This document shows positions 45,901 to 64,000 of a stretch of DNA of 64,000 bases, in pieces. Source of the DNA: Haploplasma axanthum (GTDB lineage: Bacteria; Bacillota_I; Bacilli_A; Acholeplasmatales; Acholeplasmataceae); NCBI RefSeq assembly GCF_900660745.1, contig NZ_LR215048.1, positions 1,488,001 through 1,552,000 on the forward strand, in the 5' to 3' direction. Position numbers and translations under genes: made by a program. The notes beneath the pieces are model-generated. The model had not been told where the DNA came from. It saw nothing but the letters and a program-made list of their open reading frames with translations, and did not search any database. The number at the start of each line of letters is the position of its first letter. Position 1 is the stretch's first letter.

Positions 45901-45943
45901 CATAAAAAAAGAAGGATATCTAGAATTATAGAAATCCCTCTTT
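45901..45943 (-). terminator. Terminator of the surface-protein/McrBC-like operon
   Basis: On the minus strand AAAGAGGGAT pairs with ATCCTTCTTT (one G-T pair), with inner TCTA/TAGA, followed by seven T. It lies 29 bases after the stop of the DUF2357 gene and marks the end of the five-gene operon. Confidence 0.8.
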
Positions 45944-45972: not shown

Positions 45973-47778
45973 CTAGTTTTTCAAACTTTTATTATTTTTA
46001 TTAGTTATATCCGCTTTTTGCTTATTAAGCTTAGCTTTTTGTTTTTGCCGTTCTAATTCTTTTTTCTTTAACAGTAGCTCACGACTCTTTTGTAATTCCT
46101 TTTGCTTCTTTAATTTAAGTCTTTCTTTCTCTTTTTGTTGTTTCTCTTTAAGTTTAGCTTTTTCTTTAGCTAATCTTAAAACTTCTTTTTCTTTAAACTT
46201 CTTTAACTCATCTTGATGTTTTTTCTTAATCTTAATTATTTGAGCATCAACTTGTCTTTTTCTTGCTTGAAGAGTTCTTCTATTTTTAGCATTCAAATCT
46301 TTTTCTACTTTAGCAAGTTCTTTATCAACATTCTTAGAAAGCTTAGTAATCTCATCATTTGTTTCTTTAATTCCGCGATTCTTCAAGGTTTCAGTTGCTT
46401 CTTTTTGGTATGTTAGAACTTCTTTAACCCATTTATTCTCTAAGACAAGTGCTTCGTTATACATTTTTTCTTTAACTTCACGTGCCATTTTAGTAATGAT
46501 ATATTTATGTTCTGCATCATTAAATTTTTTAACTGGATCATTTGCATTAATAAGCCTATTAAAAACATCTTCATCTTGATTACTATTAAAATAATGTTCA
46601 TATACTTGATCAACGATAGCATATTGATCCAATAATATCTGTTTCAAATTATGTTTTTCATTGCTATTAAACTTACTAATCTCATCAAACTGTTTACCAA
46701 ATATCTGTTTGGCTTTTTTTAAATAATATTCTGTTGCTTGTTGTGGTTCCATATCAAGATATGGTAAATCAATACTTGCATCAGCAACATAATCTTCACG
46801 ATTATCTTTAGGTTTTATTGATCTACTAACAAGTTTTTCATCCGAATTATTTGCACTACCTAAATTGCTATTATTAAAAATAACTGAAAATAAAAATAGG
46901 ATTCCTTGATCTAATTGTAAATGGTAATCACGATTAAATCTTTTATTTCTAATCTCACTTTCAAGTGTATAATCTAAGACATGAATTCTATCTAAATATA
47001 ACCATAGCAAGTATGCATTTCTAAAATCTGGGTTCTTTAAAATAATTTGAGTTTTCATAATTGGAGCTTTAACTTTTTTATATCTTAACATTATTCTCAT
47101 AAACTCACTATGATACATTCTAGAAACTATCTTATATGCTTCCTCAACTCTTTCATAAACTCTGTGGTTATGTTCGTCAATTTCCTTAGAATCCATTTCT
47201 TCTAAAGCTTTTAATGAAACGCTTAATTCATAGTTAGCATTGTTTAAATGAAACTCATTTGATAAATCAAAATTTGTTTCTTTAAATCCATGCATATGTT
47301 CTTTAATAGTTTTTAATCTGTTTGAAAGATAATCATTTAATCTACAAATTAGTGTCATTATAAATCTATTCTCATATATACCATATTCAATCTCTGATAA
47401 GTTATTTAAAACTTTTTCTGGTATTATTCCATCTTCATCAACAACTTCTCTAATATATCTTGTATTTTGAATTAAATGTCTAATTGACTCTGGATTTGTT
47501 CTTCTTGTTTTTTCAATTGGTAATATCTCTGTTTCATATCTAAGTGATGATCTAAGATTTCTTGTTATCTTATCTAGGCTTGGAAAAAACGATTCTAAGT
47601 TAGATATCCAATCTTCATCAAACTTTTTATATTCTAATTTTTGAAATTGTTTTCGAGTAATTTTCCCTTTTTTTACTGCATCATAAAAAATATTAGGAAA
47701 ATCTAATTCTTTTTCAACTTTATTTATTTCGCTAATAATACTTTCTTGAAACAGTCTTGAATCATATTTTCTTTTCAT
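45973..47778 (-). CDS. DUF2357 (McrC-like) protein with C-terminal coiled coil in place of a nuclease
   Basis: About 601 residues from ATG 47778, nine bases after AGGAT. Residues ~50-300 resemble DUF2357: EIEYGIYENRFIMTLICRLND at 129-149 and KNPDFRNAYLLWLYLDRIHVL at 248-268 (shown as YENRFI and NPDFRNAYLLW). DUF2357 proteins are partners of McrB-type ATPases, and many carry a PD-(D/E)xK nuclease after this part. Here no D-x(n)-E-x-K core is apparent. Instead residues ~430-595 are a highly charged Lys/Glu/Gln-rich coiled coil. The gene follows the McrB-like ATPase by 12 bases. It may be an adaptor or activator of the ATPase at the membrane. Loss of the nuclease argues against classic restriction, though remote nuclease folds cannot be excluded by eye. 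Confidence 0.7.
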   Translation of the reverse strand: MKRKYDSRLFQESIISEINKVEKELDFPNIFYDAVKKGKITRKQFQKLEYKKFDEDWISNLESFFPSLDKITRNLRSSLRYETEILPIEKTRRTNPESIRHLIQNTRYIREVVDEDGIIPEKVLNNLSEIEYGIYENRFIMTLICRLNDYLSNRLKTIKEHMHGFKETNFDLSNEFHLNNANYELSVSLKALEEMDSKEIDEHNHRVYERVEEAYKIVSRMYHSEFMRIMLRYKKVKAPIMKTQIILKNPDFRNAYLLWLYLDRIHVLDYTLESEIRNKRFNRDYHLQLDQGILFLFSVIFNNSNLGSANNSDEKLVSRSIKPKDNREDYVADASIDLPYLDMEPQQATEYYLKKAKQIFGKQFDEISKFNSNEKHNLKQILLDQYAIVDQVYEHYFNSNQDEDVFNRLINANDPVKKFNDAEHKYIITKMAREVKEKMYNEALVLENKWVKEVLTYQKEATETLKNRGIKETNDEITKLSKNVDKELAKVEKDLNAKNRRTLQARKRQVDAQIIKIKKKHQDELKKFKEKEVLRLAKEKAKLKEKQQKEKERLKLKKQKELQKSRELLLKKKELERQKQKAKLNKQKADITNKNNKSLKN

Positions 47779-47790
47779 AAATATCAAATC

Positions 47791-49305
47791 CTATATTTGT
47801 CTTATATATTTTTGAATCATCGTTTTTGAATCAATAAGTTTATCTTTTCCAAATAATTGATCAAAGATGACTAACAACTCTTCTAATTCTTTCTTTAAAA
47901 AAGGTAAGTTTAAAGTTTCAAATTTACGAATGATTTTTCTAGAAACAATATAGTCGATACCTTCAACTTCATCTCTTCCACATGCAATATATACTGGAAC
48001 AAACGTTAATAATTGCTTCATAATACGATTACCAAATGTAATTTCAAAGTTTTTAGTTATGTAATTATCAAGTTCTTTAATTGCTTCTAAGCCTCTATCT
48101 GATAGTTTATACTCATCTAGGGCATTATCAAATAACTCCCTAATATACTTGTATGATAGTTTTATGCTTGGTGTTTCAGGAGCATCGAAACTTTCAGCTT
48201 TGTCATTCATTTCAATTGATGCTGCTCTATCGTATACTTTATCTGTAATAGCAAACGTTGAATCATCTTTGTTTGCTGTACCAACAAACCAAATATTTTC
48301 TGGAATCTTAATTTTTCCTTCTTTAAGATTAATTGGATCTCCTATTATTTGCTCTGGAACAATATCTAATAACCATTCATCTGAATTAGGTAATTCAAGT
48401 AAGGATAAGAAATCTGCAAAGTAATATTCAACTCTCGCTAGATTCATTTCATCTAAAACAATTAATTGAATATCTGTTCTATATGTAGTTTCATAGATTG
48501 TTTTTAAAAATTCTGTTTCATTAAACTTCTTTGTAAACTCATTTAAATACCCCATCATTTCATAACGATCTCGCCATGAAGGTTGTACTGATATAATTGC
48601 AGAGTTATGATTAATAAACTTACCAAAAGCATATGGAAGTGAAGTTTTCCCTGTCCCTGATATCCCTTCTAAGATCATAATTTTAGATGTTGCCATACCA
48701 GCTAAAAAGATAGAAATAATTCTTTCATTATAATAAAGTTTATGATTTTTGGCTGAATAGTTTCTAAAATGCGTAACTAATTGACTTAGTGTTAATTTTT
48801 CTTCCTCTTTCATATAAGTAGGTAATACACTATATTTATATTTTTCATCAATTAGAGTTAATTTAACAAATCTATTTCCTTTTGTTCGTTGTTGTTCTGT
48901 TTTAGCAACTTGCTTATTTCCTTGAAAACCTAATTCATTTTTAGGAACGTTATTTATATTAGCAATTCCACCATTTTTAAGTTTTCTTTCTAAAACATTC
49001 ATTCTTGATAATAGTTCTAATTTTTCATATTCAATTTTTGTAAATCTAAAGTATCTTTTTAGTAACTGAAAAACAACTACAAAAAACATTACAACAAGAA
49101 TTAAGAAGATCACTATGAAGAAAACAGATAACATCCAATCTAAAAAACTAAATGATTTTGATACTATTAAAAATTCTTTAGCATATTCTATAGGGTAGCC
49201 AATTAGCAAATTATATATACCTACAAAAAAACTCTTTATAAGTCGCCACAGATTGTCTAAAAACAATCTAAAAAAATCCACAAACCACTGTGAAAACTGT
49301 CCCAT
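47791..49305 (-). CDS. Membrane-tethered McrB-like AAA+ ATPase
   Basis: 504 residues. An amphipathic N-terminal part is followed by one strong membrane helix (about 56-82), a linker with coiled-coil character (90-115), and an AAA+ domain from ~195. Walker A is GISGTGKTS (214-222). QPSWRDRYEMMGYLNEF follows, then Walker B and the McrB-type stretch LIVLDEMNLARVEYYFADFL (281-300). The sensor region is GTANKDDSTF (342-351), matching the McrB-type N-x-x-D pattern, with a likely arginine finger at Arg360. McrB proteins are normally soluble, with a DNA-reading N-terminal domain; here a membrane helix stands in its place. The ATG overlaps the preceding stop (TAATG). The DUF2357 partner follows directly. 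Confidence 0.82.
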   Translation of the reverse strand: MGQFSQWFVDFFRLFLDNLWRLIKSFFVGIYNLLIGYPIEYAKEFLIVSKSFSFLDWMLSVFFIVIFLILVVMFFVVVFQLLKRYFRFTKIEYEKLELLSRMNVLERKLKNGGIANINNVPKNELGFQGNKQVAKTEQQRTKGNRFVKLTLIDEKYKYSVLPTYMKEEEKLTLSQLVTHFRNYSAKNHKLYYNERIISIFLAGMATSKIMILEGISGTGKTSLPYAFGKFINHNSAIISVQPSWRDRYEMMGYLNEFTKKFNETEFLKTIYETTYRTDIQLIVLDEMNLARVEYYFADFLSLLELPNSDEWLLDIVPEQIIGDPINLKEGKIKIPENIWFVGTANKDDSTFAITDKVYDRAASIEMNDKAESFDAPETPSIKLSYKYIRELFDNALDEYKLSDRGLEAIKELDNYITKNFEITFGNRIMKQLLTFVPVYIACGRDEVEGIDYIVSRKIIRKFETLNLPFLKKELEELLVIFDQLFGKDKLIDSKTMIQKYIRQI

Positions 49306-50591
49306 TATTTTCTACCTCTATTCTTTTTAACACCATTAACAATAATTCTATTATTTGTATTCTTAACTATATGTGTTGCTTCATCATTTTCTATTTCCTC
49401 ATTTAGTTGAACTTCAATTTGATTAACTTTGACAAAATAATATAACTCTTCTAAACTTAAATCTCCATTAGTTAAAACATCTTTACTTAACTCTATTCTA
49501 CTCACATGATATGATTGAATTATACTATATAATGCTTGTGAAATGTTTTTTACTTCAAAAGATATTTTTATTCCAATATTTCTAAGTTCCAAAAGATTTT
49601 TTATAACTATTTGATTTTCAATAACTTCATCTTCTTTTATAGAGATTGTGATTTGTGATAAAGAAGTTTTTGACATTGAAAGAATAACTGTAAAAACTTC
49701 AAAAAAACTTTCTTTTTCAAGCATTTTCAAAGATATCGGCAAGATAATTTTACGATTCCCATAAACATTTATTACTTTTTCTATAATTAATTCTGTCAAC
49801 CAAAAATTTATCCAAGCCTGATCTGATTTACTCTTTGATTTTAGATACTCATTAAACTCTATATTATTAATTGTTGCATTTACATATATTTCTGTTTCTT
49901 CAGCACTACCTTTTCTTACAACTTCTTGAAGATCAAAAGCCACACTGTTATTTCTTACTTCATCATAACAGTTTTTATAATCTGTTAATGATGTTATATT
50001 AATTTGGTCATATTTAACTATTGTTCCTAATTCACGTCTTGACTGAATTAATGCAAACATGTTCTTTTCAATTTGTTCACTTATAGTTGGAAATTTTTCA
50101 TCTATATAACCGATACTGATTGTTTTTCTAATTGATATTCCATTTCTATTAAATTGTTCTAAAGCAGCATTTTTTAAATTTATACCGAAAACTTCATAAT
50201 CATTTTCTACTGCAGGAACATATAATATAAAAGTGTCTCGTGACTTAGTTTGGGCTATTTTACCACCATAAGGTAGGTACATACTTAAGTTTCTTGCTAA
50301 GTTTCTTAAGTATGTACGGATTGTTGAATCATTATATGTACGTTCTAATAAATCAAAATTATTAATTGATATAAGGTACAGAGCATATTCTTCATTTTTT
50401 TTAATCTTATAATTTAAGTATTCTCCAAACTTTTTATACTTAATCACTTGATTTAATGTTAACATTTCATTTTCGCGTATTTTATTTCTATTGTATAAAT
50501 AAATTCTAACCAAAATATATCCGATAATTAGAAAGACAATAACAACAGCAATAGCAATTATTTCTTTTTGTATTAATGATAAATAAAACAT
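49305..50591 (-). CDS. Membrane protein with degenerate GGDEF- and EAL-like domains
   Basis: 428 residues. One N-terminal helix (about 8-31) is followed by a GGDEF-like domain (~45-190), where the signature position reads KIAQTKSRDTFILYV instead of GGDEF. An EAL-like domain (~205-400) follows, recognised by its strand pattern (KIILPISLKML, QITISIKEDEV, LRNIGIKISFEV, VSRIELSKDVL) but with no E-A-L motif or metal-binding acids. It should neither make nor cleave cyclic di-GMP. A binding or scaffold role, or a purely structural one, is likely. It lies between the giant surface protein and the McrB-like ATPase, 16 bases and minus one base from each. Confidence 0.7.
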   Translation of the reverse strand: MFYLSLIQKEIIAIAVVIVFLIIGYILVRIYLYNRNKIRENEMLTLNQVIKYKKFGEYLNYKIKKNEEYALYLISINNFDLLERTYNDSTIRTYLRNLARNLSMYLPYGGKIAQTKSRDTFILYVPAVENDYEVFGINLKNAALEQFNRNGISIRKTISIGYIDEKFPTISEQIEKNMFALIQSRRELGTIVKYDQINITSLTDYKNCYDEVRNNSVAFDLQEVVRKGSAEETEIYVNATINNIEFNEYLKSKSKSDQAWINFWLTELIIEKVINVYGNRKIILPISLKMLEKESFFEVFTVILSMSKTSLSQITISIKEDEVIENQIVIKNLLELRNIGIKISFEVKNISQALYSIIQSYHVSRIELSKDVLTNGDLSLEELYYFVKVNQIEVQLNEEIENDEATHIVKNTNNRIIVNGVKKNRGRK

Positions 50592-50607
50592 AATTTTCCC
50601 TCTCTAA

Positions 50608-53600
50608 CTAGAATATTAATTCGTCTTGATCTTTTTCTTTTGATCTATTCTTTTTAATTATTAAAACTAATACTGTTATTATCCATAACAATAAACTTAA
50701 TATCAATAAGATTGTTAGTAACATATCTGGTTCATGATCCTTATTAACTATCAAACGATAGTAACTTTGTGTTACACCATCTTCTGCAATAACTTTTATT
50801 AATATTGTGTTTCTTCCCTCTTCAAGATCATCAACTGATAAAGTAATTGAGTCTCTCGGTTCTCCCTGTTCATATCCTTCAATAATGATTCTTGCATTAG
50901 GATTAAATGCTTTTGCACTTATTCTTAAATCATTGACTTTATTATCTATATTGATTTTATATGTATAAGTACTCTTATCAAAGCCAATCGTTTGATTACT
51001 AATAGCTAATTCTTCTAATTGTGCATTATTGCTTGGAATTGAATATTTAGAAATTCTAACGGTATATGTTTGTGTAACAATACCATCAGCAGATGTGACA
51101 TATACTCTTATTTTTTCTTCAGTATTACTAATTGCATAAGTACCAAAGCCAGTAATTCTAGCTCCTTCTTGATCTTGTGCTGCACCAGTAAGTCTTATAT
51201 ATTTTGTATTAGTATCAACGACAACATCATATTCAAATGTTTCAGGATTAAAAGTGAAATTAGTGAAATCTTTTGCTGTTTCCTCGTTATATTTTGTTTC
51301 TGAACTACCTTTAACAATTATATTATCTAAAAATGCATTACTATCAACATATTTAATATTTACTGTATATGAATTAATACTACCACTTTCTGAAGTAACC
51401 GAGATAACAAAAGTATTGTTACCTGTAACTAGAGTTTTTTCACCTATACCTTGAATTTGAGCATTATTTTTAGTTGTTCCATTTAATATAACTTTACTAT
51501 TCGTTGCTCCTTTTGCTCTTACTATCTCATATGTTGTAATTTCAGGACTAAAGTTTGGAATAGTAATACCATCAACTGTAAGATCTGTTAAAGTATTTTC
51601 TTCTAAAGCTTTCTCCCTTTTAACAAAAATTGTATATTCTGCAGTTTGTTTTTTAGTACTCTGAGATACAACTTTAAACGTATAAGTTATTTGATCACTA
51701 ACAAATTGTTTTCTACCTGCTCCATAAACTCTACCTACAGAATCAATTTCTAAATTCATATTCATTACTTGATATGGAACAATTATTTCATATTCTAAAA
51801 CATCTAAATCAAAATCTTCAGATGTAAAATAAGTCTCGTTATCGCTTCCTATCAAATTAATATCTGTTATATCAATAATATCTTCAAATGTTACTCCACG
51901 ATAAATACTTATATTATAAGTTCTTTCATCACCATTTTCAGCTTCAACAACAACTTTTAATACGGTATGATATTTTCCATTAACTTCAGCTTCTAATTTT
52001 TGATTTCCAGCACCATATACAGTAGCCGATTTATGATTTGCATCTGCCTCAATAACTACAGACATTATATTTAAATCTTCAGAAACCATTATAAAATAGT
52101 CTTCTACCTTTGGTTCGAAAATTGAAACAAAAGGTAATATATTCCCTGATTTATCTTTAACAACAAGTCTTTTCAAAGTATTATCATCACTTGGTTCTTC
52201 AACTACTATATCAATTTGATAACGTGTTCCTTGTTTTCCACTTTGGGCTGTTGCATATACTACAAATATATTAGAACCGATATTTAGATTACGTTTTATA
52301 CCAGCACCATTAATAGTTGCTTTTCCATCTTCAGCCTGAGCAAATATTTCGACATCTATTTTTGATGAATACGGTATTGTAACTACATATGCTGTATGGT
52401 CAACATCAAATATAGGAGTCATATCATAATCTAAAACACCTAATGTGACAAGATTAGCATTAAAACTTTGACTCTTAACAATTAATTTATATGTTTGTGC
52501 ATCACCTGATCCTGATTCGGGTGTAACTATTATTTCAAAAACATTTTCAAGTCCTTTGGAAAGTGTTTTTTTACCAAATCCTAAGACTGTTGATTTACTA
52601 TCACTTGTTTGACCGGAAATAAATACTTTATCAATCTTATCACTATCTACTACTACTTCATATTCAAAAACATTTGGATCAAATCCTGGAATTCTTGTTC
52701 CATTCACTGATAATTGTTCTAATAAATTATCTGTACTTGGATCTTCTTTAACAATTCTTATTGTATATTCATCAGAACTTACTTTACCACTTTGTGATGT
52801 AATACTAAAAGTAATGATTGTTTCTTTATCATTTAATACATATTCATTTTTTCCATTTAGTCTTGCTCCATTTGAATTACTAAATGCAATTACAGCTTTT
52901 TTTGAACTAAATGGTATATCAATATCATATGATTTTTGGCTAGCTTTAAATTGTAAAGCACCGTCTTTTAAATCATTTGATAAATAAACGCTTGAATCAA
53001 CATGCAATTTAAATTCATCTATCGTTATATCATCTTCTGCTTTTACATTGCGTTTAACAATAATAGTATATCTTTTTGTTGTTATTCTATCTTCGGCGGT
53101 AACATCAATATAAAATCTCTCAGTTGTTTCACCTACACCCGATTGTAAACTGAAAACACCATTTCCAGAAACATTTGATGCTTTTGAAAACGCCATAGCA
53201 TTAATTTCAATTTCTGTTATTGCTGGACTATCACTTAAATCTATATTATAGATATTTATGTTTGGGTTAAATATTGGATCATATTGAATATTATTTCCAT
53301 TTCCATCAAAAATATCTAATGAATTTAAATCAGCATTATTGTCAGCTTTTAAAATACTAATAACATATTGTTTTTCTTTGTTTGTTTCAGATTTAATACT
53401 TACAATAAATATTTGCTCAGATAATTTCGTTACTTTAACTCCTAAACCATTTATTGTTGATTTATTTGAAGATGAAATTGCTTTAATTTCAATTTCATTT
53501 GTATCACTATCGATAACAACTTTTTGATAATCTAATGAAACATCTAATTCTCTTTCTATACCTTTTTCAACAATATATAAGCGATCCAAATCAGTATTGT

Positions 53601-56600
53601 CATCACCTTGTTTTCTTGTTAAATTAACTGTATATACTTTTCCTTTTGTTCCATCAGAAGCAGTTATTTGAATCTTTATTTGTTTAGTTTCACCTGGTTC
53701 AATTTTATAGTTTCCATCTCCAATAACAGTTGATAAACTATTTTGAAGAGTTTTTATAACTGCATGAGTATCAGTAAATCCTAGTGAAAGATTATATATC
53801 ATAGTATCTGTATCATAATTCAACATATATTCATCATCAGTGATTAAACCTCTAACTGATAAATCATATAATTCTGCATCACTATTTGTTGGCGTACCAT
53901 TATTGTTGCCTTTTTTACGAGTTACTTTAATGGTATATTCTACTTTTTGGCTTCCGTCTTCACTAGTTGCTATAACTTTAAAAGTATTAAGTCCGTCAAT
54001 AAGAGTTTGACGCCCTGTACCTATTAATTTACCAAATTCATCAGATATTTTAGCTACTATATCAATTGCTTGAACCGTTGATTCTACTTCACCTAGATCA
54101 TACTCAAGAATATTTTTATTATATGAGATGTTAAAATCAACAACACTTAATTCTTCAATTTCTATATCCTTATTAGCAACCTTAATATTAACAGTATAAA
54201 CCTCTGTAGTAATTCCATCTTCTGCCTTAACTGTAATTGTATATTTGTTATTTCCTGGCTCCAAATTTAAGATACGATTAAAATTATGGCTATATGTTAG
54301 TGAAGCATTTTTATCATTAAGTTCACTTTGAATACTAATATTTTGTGAATCTCTTGTTAAGAATAACTGATAAGTAAATGTTTTTGGATCAAATACTAGC
54401 TGTGTAGGATTATTACCTTGTAAACCTAAAACAATATCAGTATTATCAACTATAACTATTATTTCTTTTAATGTTGCATCTGTTGAAGGCTGATTTCTAG
54501 TTATTTCGATAGTATAAGTGACTGTTTTACTGGTATCTTCACTAATTGCTTCAACTATAAACGTGTTTAAACCATATTTTAATGTTTTAGTTCCAATACC
54601 GCTTAGTGTACCATATGAATTATTCGAAATAGTAGCAGTTATATCAATATTTTGTACTCTAGAACTTACATTCCCCAAATTGTATGTAGCTGTCGGCTGT
54701 GACGGATCATGTGTAAATGTGAATCCATCTACTTCCAACGTTTCAATTTTGATATCTGAATTTTCAACAACTACTGTAATATAGTAGTTCTTAATGAAAG
54801 CTTGTCCCGCTTCTGGAGTTACTGTCACTACAAATTGGTTTGTTTTTGGATTCAATATTTCATTGATGTAACTACCTGAAAGTGATGCTTTTGAATCACT
54901 AGCCGTTGGTGTAATCTTAATAAATTGAGCATGTCTCGTCAAATGTAGTTTATATATATTAGTAGCTGGATCAAAAACAAGCTGTTTACCTTGTTCTCCT
55001 AAAATTGTTTCTCCATTAACAACCACTTCTAATTTATCTAGATTGGCATCTGTTGATGGCTCACTTCTAGTTACAGTTATGATATATTCGGTTCCTCTAA
55101 CTTTGCTTTCTGAAGTCGCATAAATCTTAATAGTTGTAACTTTTTGATTCAACGTGTATGTCTGAATTCCTGTAATTGTAGCTGGACTGTTTGGTTTCTT
55201 TTCAGCATTAACAATAATATTGGTAATGCTATAATCTACCGTAATTGAATATTTATCAGTTTCAGGGTTAAAGACATTTTGTCCTATCATATATTCTACG
55301 CCAAACAAATCGGTAATTGAAATATTCGTGATTGAATTGTCAGTATCTAATGAGGTGCCTTTCATAATTGTTATTGTATATTGTTGCTCAGCACCATCTT
55401 CTGCTTTAACTATAAATTTAAATTCTACTTTTATTTTTCCATCATTTTCAATAATTGGTTTTAATGATGATTGACCCGGTTGAGTCACATCACCACTCAA
55501 AGATTGTCTTGAATCTAATAATTCAGCAAACAAATAAACACCTGCTGAAACATCTTGGGTTGACAATGTAATAATATAATCAAATTTACCTTTTCTATAT
55601 GGTTCAACATCAAATACTAGACTATTTCCATCTTTATCTGTAACATATAAATTATCTAAATTGGTATCTTTAAATGGTTGACTACGAGTCACTTTCACTT
55701 CATATACGATATCATCTGCAGTATTACTAATCAATTGATTATAGTCAGATCTGACAGTAATTCTAATGATATTTTCTCCATAAGCAAGTGCTGTAGCACC
55801 TTCTCCGATAACGTGAACATATGAATTACTTGGTTTTGATACGACAACATTAACACTCAATTGATTCCATACAAAAGGCGTTAAAATCTCAAATGAAGGT
55901 TCTGCAACATCAAAGTTCGGCACGTCAATACCGCCTATTTTAATACCATTTATTTGTGAAATATCATTTGCAACATATACTTTAAGGGTATATGTTTGTG
56001 TGATAGCGCCACTTTCTGATGTTACAACATATGTAAATTCATTCAAACCTACTTGTAACGTCTTAGACTCAGTTAATGTACTGATATGATTTGATAATTT
56101 ACCATTGCTATCTGCTACAACTGTAATACTAATATTCTTACTTCCACTAAAACGATCAATTCTCACAATTGTATTTAATTCACTTGGATTAAACGCAATA
56201 CCAGCTTCCGTTAGGATATCTTTCCCATCAACCATAGCAACCATTGATTTTAGTTTTGCTTCATTAGATGCACTTAGTGGTACATAAGTAAATGTATACA
56301 CTTTTTTATTTACTGTACTTGGATAATCATATTCTGAAATAACGTACATCGTGATTTCTTTTTTTGTTTCACCATTTTTAAGTTTCTCTATTGTATGAGT
56401 AAATTCACCATTAGCATTAACTGATACTTCACTATTGTTAACAAATAATTTTGCGTGTGCTTCTTTGATAACCTTGAATGTTAGCGTTGTCTTATTGAAT
56501 GCAAAGTCGCCTAAATCGTATGCAGTTTGTGTATCATGATTATTAAAATCATAAGTAACATCATTATCATTAATTGCAATATCAATGCTATCATCATCAC

Positions 56601-59600
56601 TTTTCGTTATAACTTTTAGTATATGCGTTTTATTGAATCCTGCTTCTGATCGGATGATAACATTTAATGCATTATCACTACCCGGCGTTAATGCGTAAAT
56701 GAACGTGTAAACATCATGTAATCCTTCAACTGATTTAGCTAACCCATCATGTGTGCTAAACAATGTCTTCTTTTGAGACGTTAACAGGTAGATTTTAATA
56801 GATACCTCATTACTATCTCTATCTACTCTAACATTATAGTTTGACCCTGCAGTATATGGGTCAGCTGGAACTTCCATACTATTTAGAATAACCTTGATAT
56901 CATCAATATCACGATTTACTTGGGCATCGTTTTTCTCAATGGTAATTTCATAACTTTGTGAAATAGTTTTTCCATCTTCAGCGGTTCCAATGATGGTAAT
57001 GGTATTAGTTTTACCAGTGAGTTCTACTATATTACCTGCTACATTACCTGATCCGGAAGTTACTTTAATTTCATATGTTGCATTATTTATTGCATCGCTC
57101 ATTGTAACTATGAATGTGACAAAGCGATCACTATGTGCAACGGTACCTAAATTAAACGTGCGGTACGCTGAAATATCCAACATTTGATCAATTGAAGCAC
57201 CATTTTCTACTCTAATACTATCAATATCAGCATTACTATTCTTTTGATTTACTTTAATTTGATAAGGTCTTACTGTACCATTTTCAGCTGTCACATTAAT
57301 AATCAGTGTAACATAAGAACCTGCACTTAAGTTTAAATCACTTGGTAATGATATTATAGCTGACTCTTTAGTAGCAGTGGCATTGAAATTTTTCAAAACT
57401 ACATCTCTATTAACTGTTATTTCAAAATTTGTTTGTGTTGCTAATAGTGATGTTGTTAAATTAAGGCTTGCTAAAACATTATTACCTGCAGTATCCATTA
57501 ATTCCAATGAACTCAGTGTATTGACACTATCTTTAGCTTGTCTGTTTAGTTTTACTTGATACTCTTTTTTCGTCTTTCCGTCTTGGGCAGTCACTGTTAC
57601 TTTCAGTGTAATATTACCTGTTAGCGTACCTAGATTCCAGACTTCATTAATCACTGCATAACTAAAACTTACTTTAGCGTTAACATCTGCTAACTGATAC
57701 TCAATTTTGAAACTTTCTGATTTAGTAAATGCTTTAATCCCTAAATCAATTGGAAAAACAGTATATTTAATATCATCAATAGTTAAACTGTCTAAATTCG
57801 CATTTGAACTGGCAATTTGAATACTTACTTTGTATTTTACAGATGATTTTGTCGGATCTTCTGGTTTAACTTCAATATCAAAAAGAGTTGGTGTAGGTCC
57901 TTCTGAAACGGTACCTGCTTTGACAAAAATAGTGGAACTACCATTATCACTACCAACGAAAATTTGTCCTTGCACGTTTTGTGGCAATGCCGCCTCAATA
58001 CGTAGGAATGTGTAACTTGTATCTTTTAATATACTATAAACTCCTTGATTTAGTGTTAGTTCTTCTCTAATTTCAGCACCAGTACTATTTTTAAATATTG
58101 CGTAAACATCACCAATACTTGTATCATTACGATAAGAACCTCTTTCAATATTAAATGTATAAGTGGTTGCTGATTTATCTCCTGCTTCTGAACTTGCAAC
58201 CACAGTAAAAGTGGTAGTTGTTCCAGGGTTACCTAAATTGATGGTAATTGAACCTGTGCCATATTTACCGTTTATTTCTGTTCCACCATTTTTAATGATA
58301 TAGGTTGCAAATTGTGAAGATAATGTAACAGTCACGTTTACTTTATCAATTGGTGCATTTACTTTTAATGTATAAGATGCTGTATTTTGAACGAAACTAT
58401 ATGGAACACCTGCTGCATTTTTAAGGATACTTCCTTGGCTATCTTCTAATGATATACCCGTAATCTTATCATCTTGATCGGCAACAACTACTTGAAATTG
58501 ATAAAAAAGACTTTCTTCTGCTTGTGAAGTGGTTGTTACACGTATATTGTAAACTTTTCCGCGCTCAAAACTAATAGATTGTCCTTCTTGCCAACTAGCA
58601 CCACCATTATCTGAATATTCATATTTTATAGGTTTTGCATAATCATTATCCATCAACTTCGATTCAATAAATAGTGTTTCTACGCCAGTTGGTGTAACAA
58701 TCATTTTTCCATACGTATTTGGTGGAATTTGGTTGGTTAAAAAGTTCTTGACAATAACACCATTAACAGTTAATGTGTTTAAAAGATTTACTGTCTCAGC
58801 TGCTTCACGTTCAATTTTTACAGTATAATCTTGTTCCACTTTATTTTCCGCAATGACTTTAAATACTGTTGAAATCTCTTGTGCTGTCTTTTGTGTATAT
58901 GTGATTGTTCCAGTAATAGAGCGTCCTTTTTTGCTTGCTGTAGAAGCAAAATCCATATTACCACTGACATATTCAATAGTCGCATTTGCATGTGTAGTAC
59001 TTAATACAACAGTAATCGTTTTATATTGATATAAAATTTTAGTCAGTGAGTTCTTCACTTTCGTTACATCATCTAATGTAAACTCACTATTAGATATCAG
59101 TGTAGTTGCTCCAGAACTTACTGTTATTGAAAATGTAATGTCTTCAGATAACTTAAAAACTGTGAATTCATGTTCTTGTGAAGTCCCATCTTGAGCTGTA
59201 ACTAAAATGATATATTTATGCTCACCTGCAGGCAAATCTTTAGCATTGAATTTATTACCAGATACCAAACTGCCATCTTTTTTAAGATAGATTAATCCCT
59301 TTTCTTTTGCTAAAGTACCATTAGGATTTAAACCAAATTCAATACTTGTTGAATTGTTATTTTTGATAACATATTTCAATTTTCCATCAGCATCTAATTC
59401 AACACTTCCAGTATCACCTGTAACAGCAATATCTGATGGATTCAAATCGTTATAATCAGATTTTTCTATTTCAATAAAGAAATGATTTACAACTGTACTA
59501 CCATCTTCAGCAGTCATTGTAAATTCTACTTTATATGTATTGCCTTTTTCATAACCTGTAATGTTGGCTGAAGCTTTAAAAACATTACCTAACTTGGTCA

Positions 59601-61104
59601 GATTACCAGTAGTTACAGTTGATGTGGCATTTCCACTTGAATCTAAAAGAATTGACTTGTATGTACCACTCTTAATGGTAGATTCTACAAAAGTAATACT
59701 ATAATTAACTGTTGTCGTATCTTTAGATAGTTTCGCTGTTCCTTGATTACTAATCGTGTCACTTGCTGCCGTACCATTTTTCTTTTCAACAACAATACTC
59801 TCTACGGTTGCTGTGGAATCACTAATCTTTTGATCAATGGTAATCTGATACGTTTCTGTATCTGTGCCTTCTGTATTGATAATAGTGATTGTATGCAATC
59901 CCTTGGCTAAGTTGGATACACTAAAATTCCCATTATTAATAGCCAATGATTTTGTATTACCACTTGGATCTTCAATGGTTGCAGTTAATGTCCCATAAGT
60001 TTCTTTTTTAATAATTTGGGCAGAAACTCCAGTTGCTTTTTGTGCATCTGGTATCACAATGGTTACTTCTCTTAAATTTGATTTATCAACTGTAACACCT
60101 GTATTATGTGTAAAAGTGATGTCACTAAATTCTAAATCTGGCTTTTCAATCTCCGTAATCGTGACTGTATGCGTTAATGCGGTTCCAGCATCATCTACTT
60201 TAATTTCGATGACATCACCAACTTGAGCTTTCGTTCGAGTTGGATCATCTTTAATAGTTATTGTTGATGTTGCAGATGCTTTAGTTTTAGTAAATGTTAT
60301 GTAATCAGCAATATTCTTTAAACTATCTGCATATGTTATCTTAGCTGCAGATATTATTGTTGCTCCTGTAGCAGAGCCAGTAAACTTAGGCATGTTGCTA
60401 ACAGTGATATCTTTTAGGGTAGCATCAGGATTAGATTGTCCTACTGAAAAATCTTTTGATTCAACTAATCCGGTATAAACTGTACCATTTCCATATCCAA
60501 TAGCATGATCTGCATTAAGTGATTTATTGTAGTGAACTTTGAATTTAAAAGATTGTCCGGATTCAATCGCATTAAGATTTGTTGTGTTAATTCTAAAATC
60601 AAATTCTGCAACAATCAAAGATTCACCCTTCTTTATTTCATAATCAATCCCCATGCCAGATGGAACTCTAGTTGTTCCTTTAACCTTAGGTTCATAAACC
60701 AATGAAAACTGTGTTCCATCATTAACATTTGGTCTAATATCTGTGGGAAGAACATTAAAAAGTGTTATATCTAGATTTTCTTCCTCTTCTTCATCATAAA
60801 CTTGTGTTTCTCCTGATCTTATTTCTGGGGCAAGTACAAATTTGCTATCAGTCCATCCTGAAAAAGTCATTTGACCGACTCTTTGATTTTGACCTATCGC
60901 TTTGACATGTACTTCAAACGTTAACGCTTTATTATTCTGACTTGCAATGTTCTTAGCCTCTTCTGCATCAAGACTAGTTTTTTGCGTACTTTTTTCAACA
61001 AGAAATATTTCTAATCCTGTTTCAATCGCCTTTACCTTCGGAATAAATACTAATGTGCAAATCAGTATAATTAGTATAAAGCCCATTATAATTTTTTTTC
61101 TCAT
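50608..61104 (-). CDS. Giant surface protein with about 32 cadherin-like beta-sandwich repeats and C-terminal membrane anchor
   Basis: 3498 residues. A signal peptide (1-~27, ending VKA) is followed by a unique N-terminal beta domain (~28-220). About 32 units of 85-110 residues then each open with a motif like S-T-D-A-x-L-x-x-L-x-V-x-G and close with a Y-T-I-x-V-x-R strand, the pattern of the cadherin-like beta-sandwich (PF12733) repeats. A membrane helix (~3461-3483) and a short basic tail KKNRSKEKDQDELIF follow; there is no LPxTG sorting signal. The repeats are well diverged from each other. GAGGGAGA lies before the ATG. It should reach far from the cell as an adhesin or stalk, with its tail facing the cytoplasmic partners encoded downstream. 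Parts of the gene look less A/T-rich than the rest of the window. Confidence 0.88.
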   Translation of the reverse strand: MRKKIIMGFILIILICTLVFIPKVKAIETGLEIFLVEKSTQKTSLDAEEAKNIASQNNKALTFEVHVKAIGQNQRVGQMTFSGWTDSKFVLAPEIRSGETQVYDEEEEENLDITLFNVLPTDIRPNVNDGTQFSLVYEPKVKGTTRVPSGMGIDYEIKKGESLIVAEFDFRINTTNLNAIESGQSFKFKVHYNKSLNADHAIGYGNGTVYTGLVESKDFSVGQSNPDATLKDITVSNMPKFTGSATGATIISAAKITYADSLKNIADYITFTKTKASATSTITIKDDPTRTKAQVGDVIEIKVDDAGTALTHTVTITEIEKPDLEFSDITFTHNTGVTVDKSNLREVTIVIPDAQKATGVSAQIIKKETYGTLTATIEDPSGNTKSLAINNGNFSVSNLAKGLHTITIINTEGTDTETYQITIDQKISDSTATVESIVVEKKNGTAASDTISNQGTAKLSKDTTTVNYSITFVESTIKSGTYKSILLDSSGNATSTVTTGNLTKLGNVFKASANITGYEKGNTYKVEFTMTAEDGSTVVNHFFIEIEKSDYNDLNPSDIAVTGDTGSVELDADGKLKYVIKNNNSTSIEFGLNPNGTLAKEKGLIYLKKDGSLVSGNKFNAKDLPAGEHKYIILVTAQDGTSQEHEFTVFKLSEDITFSITVSSGATTLISNSEFTLDDVTKVKNSLTKILYQYKTITVVLSTTHANATIEYVSGNMDFASTASKKGRSITGTITYTQKTAQEISTVFKVIAENKVEQDYTVKIEREAAETVNLLNTLTVNGVIVKNFLTNQIPPNTYGKMIVTPTGVETLFIESKLMDNDYAKPIKYEYSDNGGASWQEGQSISFERGKVYNIRVTTTSQAEESLFYQFQVVVADQDDKITGISLEDSQGSILKNAAGVPYSFVQNTASYTLKVNAPIDKVNVTVTLSSQFATYIIKNGGTEINGKYGTGSITINLGNPGTTTTFTVVASSEAGDKSATTYTFNIERGSYRNDTSIGDVYAIFKNSTGAEIREELTLNQGVYSILKDTSYTFLRIEAALPQNVQGQIFVGSDNGSSTIFVKAGTVSEGPTPTLFDIEVKPEDPTKSSVKYKVSIQIASSNANLDSLTIDDIKYTVFPIDLGIKAFTKSESFKIEYQLADVNAKVSFSYAVINEVWNLGTLTGNITLKVTVTAQDGKTKKEYQVKLNRQAKDSVNTLSSLELMDTAGNNVLASLNLTTSLLATQTNFEITVNRDVVLKNFNATATKESAIISLPSDLNLSAGSYVTLIINVTAENGTVRPYQIKVNQKNSNADIDSIRVENGASIDQMLDISAYRTFNLGTVAHSDRFVTFIVTMSDAINNATYEIKVTSGSGNVAGNIVELTGKTNTITIIGTAEDGKTISQSYEITIEKNDAQVNRDIDDIKVILNSMEVPADPYTAGSNYNVRVDRDSNEVSIKIYLLTSQKKTLFSTHDGLAKSVEGLHDVYTFIYALTPGSDNALNVIIRSEAGFNKTHILKVITKSDDDSIDIAINDNDVTYDFNNHDTQTAYDLGDFAFNKTTLTFKVIKEAHAKLFVNNSEVSVNANGEFTHTIEKLKNGETKKEITMYVISEYDYPSTVNKKVYTFTYVPLSASNEAKLKSMVAMVDGKDILTEAGIAFNPSELNTIVRIDRFSGSKNISITVVADSNGKLSNHISTLTESKTLQVGLNEFTYVVTSESGAITQTYTLKVYVANDISQINGIKIGGIDVPNFDVAEPSFEILTPFVWNQLSVNVVVSKPSNSYVHVIGEGATALAYGENIIRITVRSDYNQLISNTADDIVYEVKVTRSQPFKDTNLDNLYVTDKDGNSLVFDVEPYRKGKFDYIITLSTQDVSAGVYLFAELLDSRQSLSGDVTQPGQSSLKPIIENDGKIKVEFKFIVKAEDGAEQQYTITIMKGTSLDTDNSITNISITDLFGVEYMIGQNVFNPETDKYSITVDYSITNIIVNAEKKPNSPATITGIQTYTLNQKVTTIKIYATSESKVRGTEYIITVTRSEPSTDANLDKLEVVVNGETILGEQGKQLVFDPATNIYKLHLTRHAQFIKITPTASDSKASLSGSYINEILNPKTNQFVVTVTPEAGQAFIKNYYITVVVENSDIKIETLEVDGFTFTHDPSQPTATYNLGNVSSRVQNIDITATISNNSYGTLSGIGTKTLKYGLNTFIVEAISEDTSKTVTYTIEITRNQPSTDATLKEIIVIVDNTDIVLGLQGNNPTQLVFDPKTFTYQLFLTRDSQNISIQSELNDKNASLTYSHNFNRILNLEPGNNKYTITVKAEDGITTEVYTVNIKVANKDIEIEELSVVDFNISYNKNILEYDLGEVESTVQAIDIVAKISDEFGKLIGTGRQTLIDGLNTFKVIATSEDGSQKVEYTIKVTRKKGNNNGTPTNSDAELYDLSVRGLITDDEYMLNYDTDTMIYNLSLGFTDTHAVIKTLQNSLSTVIGDGNYKIEPGETKQIKIQITASDGTKGKVYTVNLTRKQGDDNTDLDRLYIVEKGIERELDVSLDYQKVVIDSDTNEIEIKAISSSNKSTINGLGVKVTKLSEQIFIVSIKSETNKEKQYVISILKADNNADLNSLDIFDGNGNNIQYDPIFNPNINIYNIDLSDSPAITEIEINAMAFSKASNVSGNGVFSLQSGVGETTERFYIDVTAEDRITTKRYTIIVKRNVKAEDDITIDEFKLHVDSSVYLSNDLKDGALQFKASQKSYDIDIPFSSKKAVIAFSNSNGARLNGKNEYVLNDKETIITFSITSQSGKVSSDEYTIRIVKEDPSTDNLLEQLSVNGTRIPGFDPNVFEYEVVVDSDKIDKVFISGQTSDSKSTVLGFGKKTLSKGLENVFEIIVTPESGSGDAQTYKLIVKSQSFNANLVTLGVLDYDMTPIFDVDHTAYVVTIPYSSKIDVEIFAQAEDGKATINGAGIKRNLNIGSNIFVVYATAQSGKQGTRYQIDIVVEEPSDDNTLKRLVVKDKSGNILPFVSIFEPKVEDYFIMVSEDLNIMSVVIEADANHKSATVYGAGNQKLEAEVNGKYHTVLKVVVEAENGDERTYNISIYRGVTFEDIIDITDINLIGSDNETYFTSEDFDLDVLEYEIIVPYQVMNMNLEIDSVGRVYGAGRKQFVSDQITYTFKVVSQSTKKQTAEYTIFVKREKALEENTLTDLTVDGITIPNFSPEITTYEIVRAKGATNSKVILNGTTKNNAQIQGIGEKTLVTGNNTFVISVTSESGSINSYTVNIKYVDSNAFLDNIIVKGSSETKYNEETAKDFTNFTFNPETFEYDVVVDTNTKYIRLTGAAQDQEGARITGFGTYAISNTEEKIRVYVTSADGIVTQTYTVRISKYSIPSNNAQLEELAISNQTIGFDKSTYTYKINIDNKVNDLRISAKAFNPNARIIIEGYEQGEPRDSITLSVDDLEEGRNTILIKVIAEDGVTQSYYRLIVNKDHEPDMLLTILLILSLLLWIITVLVLIIKKNRSKEKDQDELIF

Positions 61105-61128
61105 TTTTGTCTCCCTCGCATAGTAACT

Positions 61129-64000
61129 TTAATCATAAATTTTTTGCTTTCCATTAACATGATTTGTTAAAACACCTAAATCTATGACATCAACAGTATC
61201 GTCATCATTAAGCAATAATGCAAGTAACATTAAATTGCTTATTACAAGTGATTTTTTATTAATATGATTCGTTATGACACCTAAATCTATGACATTAACA
61301 TTTCCATCTCCATTTACATCACCTTTAAGAACCATAGTAACTCTATCCTTATAGACTGATGGATTGTTTTCATCTCTAATGACAACTTCATATCCTGTTG
61401 CTACTACTTTTGTTAAATCTGTAATACTATTACCATTGCTATCAATAAATTCTATGTTAGTATTTCTAATCTTATCTTTTAAATCAGCAAGGGTTTGATT
61501 CAATTGAATACCAAATAGGTATGCTGGTCCCATATCATCATCTTTTTTACGTTTTTCAACATCATGAATAGTTGTTATTTCAGCATATGCTATCTTGTAT
61601 GTTTCTTTATATTCTTCTTTGATTTCTATAAATCCATCAAATTCATATCGTGCTATTAGTTTAACCCAACCATATGTGATATCATCCACATCAAAATATT
61701 CAGTCGTAGTTATAGTTGCTTGCATCATTTTTGGTGCTGATAAGTATCTGAAACTCATTCTAGCAAATGATGTTTCAGATGCAGCATCTTGTTGAACAAC
61801 TTCTACTAATTGCCAACCAATAAATTTATAATCTTCTTTAGTTGGTGTTGGTAGAATTGAAGGTTTATTCTCCACATTATAAACATCTGGATTTAATATT
61901 TCTCCACCATCAGTATCATAGATAATTGAATAATCAATTGGTTTAAAGTATGCATATAATAATAAATCATCGTCTAGATCATACTCAAAACTATCACCAG
62001 CTGAATAACTAACGTAATCATCTTGTGGATCTAATTTCCAGCCCATAAATTCATAAGCTAGTTTACTGTATTGTGTTGGTAAAACATTGGTTGATTGGCC
62101 AAATGTCACTACCTCAGACACAGTTTGCGCACCATCAATATCCATAACATAGTAATAAATTGTGAAGCGATCTGGTATAAAGAGTGGTGATGTTTGAATA
62201 TCTTGCGTAATATTAGTCAAATCTTTATCCCAACGATCAAATGAATACCCTTTACGTTTTGCTGTTGGAATTGGATCTGTGTATAGGTTAATTGATTCCC
62301 CATATTTTTTAGTAATCTTGACCTGCTTATTACCGTCGTAGTTAAATGTGATGGTAAACAAACGGTCTTTTCTTTCAAATAATGGTTTAATATGCATTTC
62401 TTGGGTCACTTCATCAAACGACTGATCCCAACCAATAAATTCGTAGTAGTATCTTTCCGTCATTTCTTTAGTTGGTATTCTACTTGGTGATACTGCTGCA
62501 CTACCATGTTCTATATGTTGTGCATCAAGTACTAGTCCATTACCATCATAGAAATATACGAAATATTTAACTTTTACTATTTTATATCGTGCAACATAGG
62601 ATACATCTTCGGTTAATTCATCAGCCACTGGTAAATCCCAACCAATGAATTCATATTTAAAAGATGCATCCTCAGATGTTTTAGTCGGTGCTGCTGGTGG
62701 TATGATTTTAGTACCGTATGGTCCTTTGATTTGTTTTAAGATTGTAATACCATCTTCATCATAGAATGTATACATATAAAGTCTTGTTACAGTTACATAT
62801 CTAATTTGAACAATAGTATCATCTGTAATATAGTTAAATGATTTATCCCAACCCGCAAACACATATACTTCTTTGTAAGTTGGTGGTTTTTGTGGAAGAT
62901 TTTCTGGTTCTGAAGCTCCAGTTCCATACTTAACCAATTGTCTATTAAATGGTAATCCATTTTCATCAACAAATGTTACCTCATATTCAACGAGTTCATG
63001 ATTAAACACTGCATCAATAATTAAATCTGTTTTAACATTTTCTGGTTTTTGATTCCACATTCTAAAGTAATAATGATATTGCTTAGTCGATAATTTCGTT
63101 GGTATTTCCTTTGGAATCATACCATTGGTGCCATAAGGAACTATTTGTACCTCACCAAAAATATCACCATTGCCATCATAATAAGTAACCGTATATGTTC
63201 TAACTGTTTCATCAAAAATCGGTCTAAATTCTAGATTTTCTAACAAGAATACTGGAATTTCATTATCCCATTCCACGAAAGTGTACACATATTGTGGTGT
63301 CATGTTCTTAGTTGGTGGAACTGGTTTTTCAATTGGTGTACCATAAGGTGCAGTTACTTTGAGATATTCCTTACCATCTGCATCATAGAAAATATAAGTA
63401 TATTCTTGTTTTTCTTCTACTACAATTAAAGTTATCAGCGTATCTTCTGATATTACTTTAAATTGACGACTCCAAATAAAACTGTACTTATGTTCTTCTG
63501 TATCTTCTGGTAATGTAATCAATGCTGCATCTGGTGCTGTGGCTGATTGACCATATTTTACATGTTCTTCTTTAATAACTTTACCGTCATCATATGCGAA
63601 TACAACACGATACGTTCTCTCAACTTCTTTAAATAGTGCAGTAATCACGCGGTCCTCTTTGACTTGTGTTAATGGTTTATCCCAACCCACAAACTCATAA
63701 ACATATTGTTTAGTAGCTTCTTTTGTTGGCATATATCCTATGTCAATTGGATTTGGTGCATCTTGATTCCAGTAAACTTCATAACTGACCAGTTCATTAC
63801 CGTCACCATCAATAAATTTCACAATATTAACATTTGAATATTGTTTGTACTCTGCAATAGCAATTAAATCTTTAGTAATAAATGTTACATCTTCACTCCA
63901 TCCAGTAAATTCAAAGCGATAATTTGGATCTTCACTTTCCCTTATTGGGGTTTCATTCGGAAGGATGGCATCACTACCATATTGTACTTTTTCATGTCTT
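61129..64000 (-). CDS. Secreted InlB-repeat protein with dockerin-like C-terminus, partial
   Basis: The frame stays open from the stop at 61129 to the window edge: the codons before the GTG at 63822 continue another repeat (FEFTGWSEDVTFITKDLIA), so the true start lies outside. About 11 InlB/Listeria-Bacteroides or MucBP-like units of 70-80 residues are visible, each with a Y-x-F-x-G-W-D core. The C-terminal ~70 residues hold a dockerin-like pair: GDVNGDGNVNVIDLGVITNHI with a full calcium loop, then NDDDTVDVIDLGVLTNHVNG. There is no membrane anchor at the C-terminus. The gene is 24 bases upstream of the giant protein gene and in the same operon. Likely a secreted binding protein held on the surface through the dockerin-like part. 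Confidence 0.85.
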   Translation of the reverse strand, partial: RHEKVQYGSDAILPNETPIRESEDPNYRFEFTGWSEDVTFITKDLIAIAEYKQYSNVNIVKFIDGDGNELVSYEVYWNQDAPNPIDIGYMPTKEATKQYVYEFVGWDKPLTQVKEDRVITALFKEVERTYRVVFAYDDGKVIKEEHVKYGQSATAPDAALITLPEDTEEHKYSFIWSRQFKVISEDTLITLIVVEEKQEYTYIFYDADGKEYLKVTAPYGTPIEKPVPPTKNMTPQYVYTFVEWDNEIPVFLLENLEFRPIFDETVRTYTVTYYDGNGDIFGEVQIVPYGTNGMIPKEIPTKLSTKQYHYYFRMWNQKPENVKTDLIIDAVFNHELVEYEVTFVDENGLPFNRQLVKYGTGASEPENLPQKPPTYKEVYVFAGWDKSFNYITDDTIVQIRYVTVTRLYMYTFYDEDGITILKQIKGPYGTKIIPPAAPTKTSEDASFKYEFIGWDLPVADELTEDVSYVARYKIVKVKYFVYFYDGNGLVLDAQHIEHGSAAVSPSRIPTKEMTERYYYEFIGWDQSFDEVTQEMHIKPLFERKDRLFTITFNYDGNKQVKITKKYGESINLYTDPIPTAKRKGYSFDRWDKDLTNITQDIQTSPLFIPDRFTIYYYVMDIDGAQTVSEVVTFGQSTNVLPTQYSKLAYEFMGWKLDPQDDYVSYSAGDSFEYDLDDDLLLYAYFKPIDYSIIYDTDGGEILNPDVYNVENKPSILPTPTKEDYKFIGWQLVEVVQQDAASETSFARMSFRYLSAPKMMQATITTTEYFDVDDITYGWVKLIARYEFDGFIEIKEEYKETYKIAYAEITTIHDVEKRKKDDDMGPAYLFGIQLNQTLADLKDKIRNTNIEFIDSNGNSITDLTKVVATGYEVVIRDENNPSVYKDRVTMVLKGDVNGDGNVNVIDLGVITNHINKKSLVISNLMLLALLLNDDDTVDVIDLGVLTNHVNGKQKIYD

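Follow-up and report, generated by a model that had tools for sequence, protein, structure and literature searches.

Analysis of a 64,000-nucleotide stretch of the 1.88-Mb Haploplasma axanthum genome (referred to here as the window; G000:C1:1488001-1552000) raised the question of why an McrB-like NTPase and a DUF2357 protein, a pair of restriction descent, should be encoded together with giant surface proteins in a wall-less bacterium. The organization of the locus, its relatives in other genomes, and the phylogeny of the ATPase were analyzed to address this question.

Organization of the five-gene operon

A first-pass annotation of this DNA had proposed five minus-strand genes ended by one terminator, and all five open reading frames were recovered. 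In 5'-to-3' order, they encode a dockerin protein, a giant protein, a degenerate GGDEF-EAL protein, an ATPase, and a DUF2357 protein. The proposed intergenic gaps of 24, 16, -1, and 12 bases were confirmed; the last one is reduced to 3 bases if the DUF2357 gene begins at an upstream TTG (position 47787), which is a possible alternative start. The terminator corresponds to a terminator-like stem-loop at 45901..45943 on the minus strand, 3' of the DUF2357 gene, which folds well (z -4.9) and is absent from the list of the consensus scanner. A promoter scan returned fewer sites than were found in shuffled sequences and was uninformative in this AT-rich DNA. Pfam searches bore out the domain assignments, namely, InlB/Listeria-Bacteroides repeats and a dockerin in the first protein, repeats in the giant protein, weak and degenerate EAL/GGDEF matches, a P-loop ATPase, and DUF2357 above the cut-off. 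Membrane helices were likewise located in the ATPase (residues ~56 to 80), at the N terminus of the EAL protein, and at the C terminus of the giant protein.

The first gene is represented in the window by its C-terminal part (61129..64000, the window edge; minus strand), in which the open reading frame and Pfam revealed InlB-type repeats and a C-terminal dockerin. The full product, which the window edge truncates, has 6,245 amino acids with GLUG repeats in its N-terminal part, and its gene reaches the window-equivalent position 79866 (G000:C1:1549129-1567866), 743 bases from the next gene upstream. The second gene (50608..61104, minus strand) encodes a protein of 3,498 amino acids composed of a signal peptide, an N-terminal domain (residues ~25 to 235), 14 cadherin-like domains (PF12733), and a C-terminal membrane helix followed by a short cytoplasmic tail ending in -LIF. 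Both the helix and the tail are conserved.

The ATPase and its DUF2357 and EAL partners

The gene at 47791..49305 (minus strand) encodes a membrane-anchored McrB-like AAA+ NTPase of 504 amino acids, the N-terminal membrane helix of which is hydrophobic and conserved across the family. Walker A, Walker B, the NxD motif (ANKDDS), the arginine finger, and sensor 2 are all intact. The NxD motif reads GTANKDDST in its context, with N345 and D347 invariant. Of the 88 copies of at least 400 residues from the order, 84 have both Walker motifs, sensor 2, and an NxD motif with D or E after it, and none of the 88 has the NxxD form. All four copies lacking the motifs come from the first gene of type C operons (described below). 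Comparison of the family profile with the PDB gave McrB chains as the only matches (E 1.6e-5), and the family searches gave no FtsB/DivIC match. On sequence grounds, the AAA+ domain is assigned to the McrB family.

The last gene (45973..47778, minus strand) encodes a DUF2357 (McrC N-terminal) protein according to Pfam. In its AlphaFold model, an N-terminal domain is followed by a single K/E-rich helix spanning residues 418 to 603 (186 residues); beyond residue 350, the model consists of helices only, and a nuclease domain is absent. A domain search with the window protein and 27 homologues (n = 28) detected no nuclease family and no PD-(D/E)xK domain, and Pfam DUF2357 was recognized in 16 of these 28 members. 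An McrC fold was considered for the model and rejected; the fold searches gave no McrC among the matches listed, and the kinship to McrC therefore rests on Pfam. Pfam and a check of individual residues identified the product of the gene at 49305..50591 (minus strand) as a membrane-anchored degenerate GGDEF-EAL protein of 428 amino acids.

Conservation and operon types

ATPase relatives were found in 65 of the 101 genomes searched, most of which belong to the same order, and the neighbourhoods of most full-length ATPase copies were annotated. Three operon types were distinguished. The window arrangement (type A, the giant version) is present in 14 genomes from two Acholeplasmatales families, the order being taken from the named relatives. 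All five genes are present wherever the contig is long enough, and order and strand are kept in the 13 other genomes. Co-occurrence of the five families in the same order, which had been suggested as a check, was thereby seen in 14 genomes as far as the contigs reach. In one type A locus (L114), the EAL position is occupied by a 427-residue protein so divergent that the EAL profile misses it. Beside the five, the giant loci share no further conserved gene, nuclease or other.

Type B operons contain EAL proteins (often two), a single-pass protein, AWF-signal proteins, a SipW-like peptidase, the ATPase, the DUF2357 protein, a second SipW-like peptidase, and more AWF-signal proteins, in this order. 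"AWF-signal" is a descriptive label; SipW-type signal models match these proteins weakly. Type B is also present in 11 of the 14 type A genomes, including that of H. axanthum itself (L034). Signal peptidase genes are present in L034, and none was found at the window locus or the other giant loci. One L034 peptidase lies above the TIGR02228 cut-off and the other just below it, and both match NF046067 under its cut-off. Among the sister-operon proteins, TIGR04088 matched weakly in 2 of 17, and the subunits gave no TasA family match and no match to a solved structure by sequence. In this operon, the AWF-signal genes are separated from the two EAL genes by an oppositely oriented transposase-like gene (L034:3859-5244; G000:C1:1045858-1047243). 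Tandem type B operons were observed in four cases (L049/L050, L083/L084, L085/L086, and L089/L090); these may share one DUF2357 protein, because the first copy has no DUF2357 gene of its own after the ATPase.

Type C operons (L061, L062, L063, and L074) encode a motif-less ATPase relative, an ATPase, a DUF2357 protein, a further ATPase, and large surface proteins, some of which carry YDG or MBG repeats and one of which has a transglutaminase core. Within a type C operon, both ATPases pair together in the tree, as if homogenized. The frame at L068:5383-8088 encodes an McrB-like protein of 901 residues, in which about 12 membrane helices were seen; a DUF2357-like gene follows, and comparable long frames are present in many relatives.

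The named ATPase relatives include Acholeplasma granularum and other Acholeplasmataceae. The 78 ATPase copies from named Bacillota and Mycoplasmatota genomes (e.g., Ruminococcus flavefaciens and Eubacterium ruminantium) mostly lie in type B-like surroundings, and the giant protein is beside none of them. A SipW-like gene is positioned directly upstream of the ATPase gene in 53 of 81 order copies and 60 of 74 named relatives; DUF2357 follows directly downstream in 65 of 83 and 66 of 75, respectively.

Comparison of a set of EAL catalytic residues revealed that they are intact in the first EAL protein of type B, that most second EAL proteins of type B lack only the second Asp of DDFGTG, and that the residues are lost in type A. 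The type A EAL protein is accordingly classed as catalytically dead by residue prediction, and the decay from type B to type A goes along with a change of client.

Linkage of the ATPase/DUF2357 pair to the giant proteins

Searches for the N-terminal domain of the giant protein detected it in 12 of the 101 relatives from the order, and a sample of 296 genomes from the class added none. Every such domain is encoded upstream of the EAL, ATPase, and DUF2357 genes, except where the contig breaks, and the type A EAL protein directly precedes the ATPase, the exceptions being broken contigs and a single relative of type B. The pairwise divergences of the ATPase, DUF2357, and EAL proteins are correlated (r 0.81 to 0.84, permutation p 0.001). 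The divergence of the C-terminal 700 residues of the giant protein is less correlated with them (r 0.33 to 0.45) and still above permutation. Conservation of order and strand in the other genomes, as far as the contigs reach, places the operon far beyond chance, and an arrangement of chance neighbours was ruled out. The link between the pair and the giant proteins is likewise not accidental, because the giant N-terminal domain is never apart from the ATPase and DUF2357 genes, contig fragments excepted. The first-pass proposal, which links the pair with both the membrane and the giant proteins, is thus supported by N-domain co-occurrence and by the joint divergence of ATPase, DUF2357, and EAL proteins. 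It had also been proposed that independent occurrence in related genomes would make the link accidental. The outcome of this test was mixed, in that the pair also exists without the giants, in which case it adjoins genes for other surface proteins.

The lower correlation of the giant proteins fits an explanation by shared expression, in which the pair would perform a separate task at the membrane and the giants would merely be needed under the same conditions; the divergence of the giants tracks that of the pair less closely (r 0.43 to 0.45) than is the case for the EAL and DUF2357 genes. This explanation is quite unlikely, since it leaves unaccounted for an N-terminal domain that never occurs apart from the pair, contig fragments excepted, and an order kept across a deep divergence, the between-group identity of the ATPases being ~51%.

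The McrB/DUF2357 ancestry also suggests a defence system, that is, an McrBC variant sensing surface contact or injection. PADLOC pointed in the same direction by matching the ATPase (window 47791-49305) to the defence candidate PDC-M26A (E 2e-43). The remaining evidence argues against defence: a nuclease domain is absent in the DUF2357 protein and its 27 homologues, no conserved nuclease gene lies nearby, the pair diverges in step with the surface-operon genes, and the sister operon encodes secreted proteins and signal peptidases. With no nuclease in DUF2357 and no conserved extra gene, the contact-triggered defence suggested in the first-pass annotation found no positive support, and we consider a defence role very improbable. 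The PADLOC match is a warning that defence-finding tools can label such operons as defence.

Origin of the giant version

In a first ATPase tree, type A appeared as two basal groups, and the root was shaped by very long motif-less and polytopic rows; this tree was discarded. For the later trees, Bacillota relatives were added and the motif-less and polytopic rows were omitted. The type A ATPases formed one clade with a support of 97 in the broader tree and 99/99 in the careful tree. This clade is nested within type B, near the type B copy of the H. axanthum genome, with the root placed on type C by assumption. An alternative tree, in which type B and the Bacillota relatives group together without type A, was rejected (p-AU 0.00025). 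The giant version very probably arose once from the signal-peptidase version.

Because type A is a single clade nested in type B, membrane anchoring preceded the giant version. Membrane recruitment of the ATPase at this locus, as proposed earlier, was abandoned: anchored NxD McrB proteins with nuclease-less DUF2357 partners are widespread in Bacillota and Mycoplasmatota, where genes for EAL proteins, SipW-like peptidases, and small secreted proteins of the AWF-signal kind usually accompany the pair. The branching order supports a change in the client of the pair, from small proteins encoded beside signal peptidases to giant adhesin-like proteins.

Relation to known systems

The initial statement that no such system had been described was too strong. 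CoCoPALM was named in 2024 in one paragraph of the CoCoNuT paper, which defers the details (Bell et al. 2024, PMC11090510). As outlined there, the McrB of CoCoPALM is of the NxD kind and carries fused membrane and coiled-coil helices, its McrC homologue has a coiled coil, and genes for signal peptidases belong to the system. A literature search found "CoCoPALM" in this sense only in PMC11090510 and its preprint. From that short description, we infer that type B is CoCoPALM. The window operon shares with the outlined system an NxD McrB with a membrane helix, a DUF2357 protein with a long helix or coiled coil, and an operon linked to the surface; the counterpart of the coiled coil on the McrC homologue would be the modelled helix 418-603. 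In contrast to CoCoPALM as outlined, the window operon contains neither a signal peptidase nor small AWF-signal proteins and has giant dockerin and cadherin-like proteins and a predicted dead EAL protein. Type A was classified as a CoCoPALM-derived variant and not as a plain member because it lacks signal peptidases. What is new here is this variant, in which two giant adhesin-like proteins replace the signal peptidases and small subunits and the EAL protein appears dead. The three operon types, the single origin of the giant type, and the parallel decay of the EAL protein provide a map that extends the CoCoPALM account, so far one paragraph.

CoCoNuT/McrBC type IV restriction systems share with the window an McrB-like AAA+ protein and a DUF2357 partner. 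They differ from the window operon, in which no PD-(D/E)xK domain or conserved nuclease neighbour was found and which is membrane anchored and includes secreted proteins. A HEPN or other nuclease, expected of a CoCoNuT when the McrC nuclease is missing, is not a feature of the giant loci. PcdA of Staphylococcus aureus is an McrB-family protein with EVE domains that acts on FtsZ and DivIVA (PMC10602043). It resembles the window ATPase as an McrB-family protein re-tasked from restriction to a cell-envelope job, whereas the window operon keeps the DUF2357 partner and is linked to surface proteins. The SipW/TasA and SipW/BsaA fibre operons (PMC9674648, PMC7395162) share a SipW-like peptidase and secreted proteins with the sister type B operon; the parts of these descriptions consulted contain no McrB/DUF2357 pair, and the giant version of the window has no SipW. 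No Acholeplasma surface system of this kind was found in the literature search.

Proposed role at the cell surface

Taken as a whole, we lean slightly towards reading the locus as a derived CoCoPALM-type operon whose membrane NTPase and DUF2357 protein would work as a machine assembling, displaying, or releasing surface proteins. In both the giant and the signal-peptidase versions, the pair would form a membrane-bound cytoplasmic machine acting on membrane-anchored surface proteins, and its action might consist in their assembly, display, or release. In the giant version, the machine would assemble or control the 3,498-residue protein, and contact would run through the C-terminal membrane helix of that protein and its short tail, both conserved. 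The dead EAL protein may be an adaptor left from c-di-GMP control, and the 6,245-residue dockerin protein may form the outer portion of a surface structure shared with the giant protein. CoCoPALM and PcdA count as precedents for a re-tasked McrB. Against this assembly role count the absence of McrC from the DUF2357 fold matches listed, the lack of profile support for a cohesin, and the PADLOC defence match.

Large surface proteins serve gliding in gliding mycoplasmas, and the Acholeplasmatales are a wall-less group, in which a stalk meets no cell wall. Together with the giant membrane-anchored stalk protein, the intact AAA+ catalytic motifs, and the long helix of the DUF2357 protein, this suggests that the NTPase might be a force generator that pulls or moves the giant adhesin via its membrane helix and tail for attachment under load or gliding. 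The same pair also serves operons of small AWF-signal proteins, where no force on a giant stalk is needed, and no McrB-type ring is known to pull on surface proteins. A force generator is therefore judged unlikely. Spelled out in full, a restriction-derived NTPase with a DUF2357 rod and a dead EAL adaptor would pull or retract a two-protein structure of almost 10,000 residues; this is an outside chance, and if true, it would be a new kind of surface machine.

Under the favoured assembly, display, or release reading, the locus is a testable case of a restriction-descended pair turned to cell-surface work in a wall-less bacterium. Testable partners at this locus are the DUF2357 rod, the EAL protein, and, in the giant protein, the membrane helix with its tail.

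The dockerin and its possible partners

The PF00404 search of the H. axanthum genome found only the dockerin of the first gene, and weaker dockerin-like ends exist elsewhere in this genome. A cohesin in the N-terminal domain of the giant protein was considered as the partner of this dockerin and not retained. The model of this domain is of low confidence (pLDDT 56), and its fold matches include one cohesin (2vo8; Z 6.1, rmsd 3.8 A, 126 residues aligned) among generic beta-sandwiches. Comparison of the domain with the cohesins of relatives gave no profile match (probability 0.5%). A single cohesin-like domain was found in the H. axanthum genome (G000:C1:825081-825359). It belongs to a 1,610-residue protein (L203:7394-12226) that is flanked by transposase genes and could be a partner of the operon dockerin. 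In relatives, dockerin-bearing open frames of 16,337 (G083:C3:49236), 16,208 (G075:C8:57758), and 12,480 residues (G079:C4:41855) were observed, which are extremely long for bacteria.
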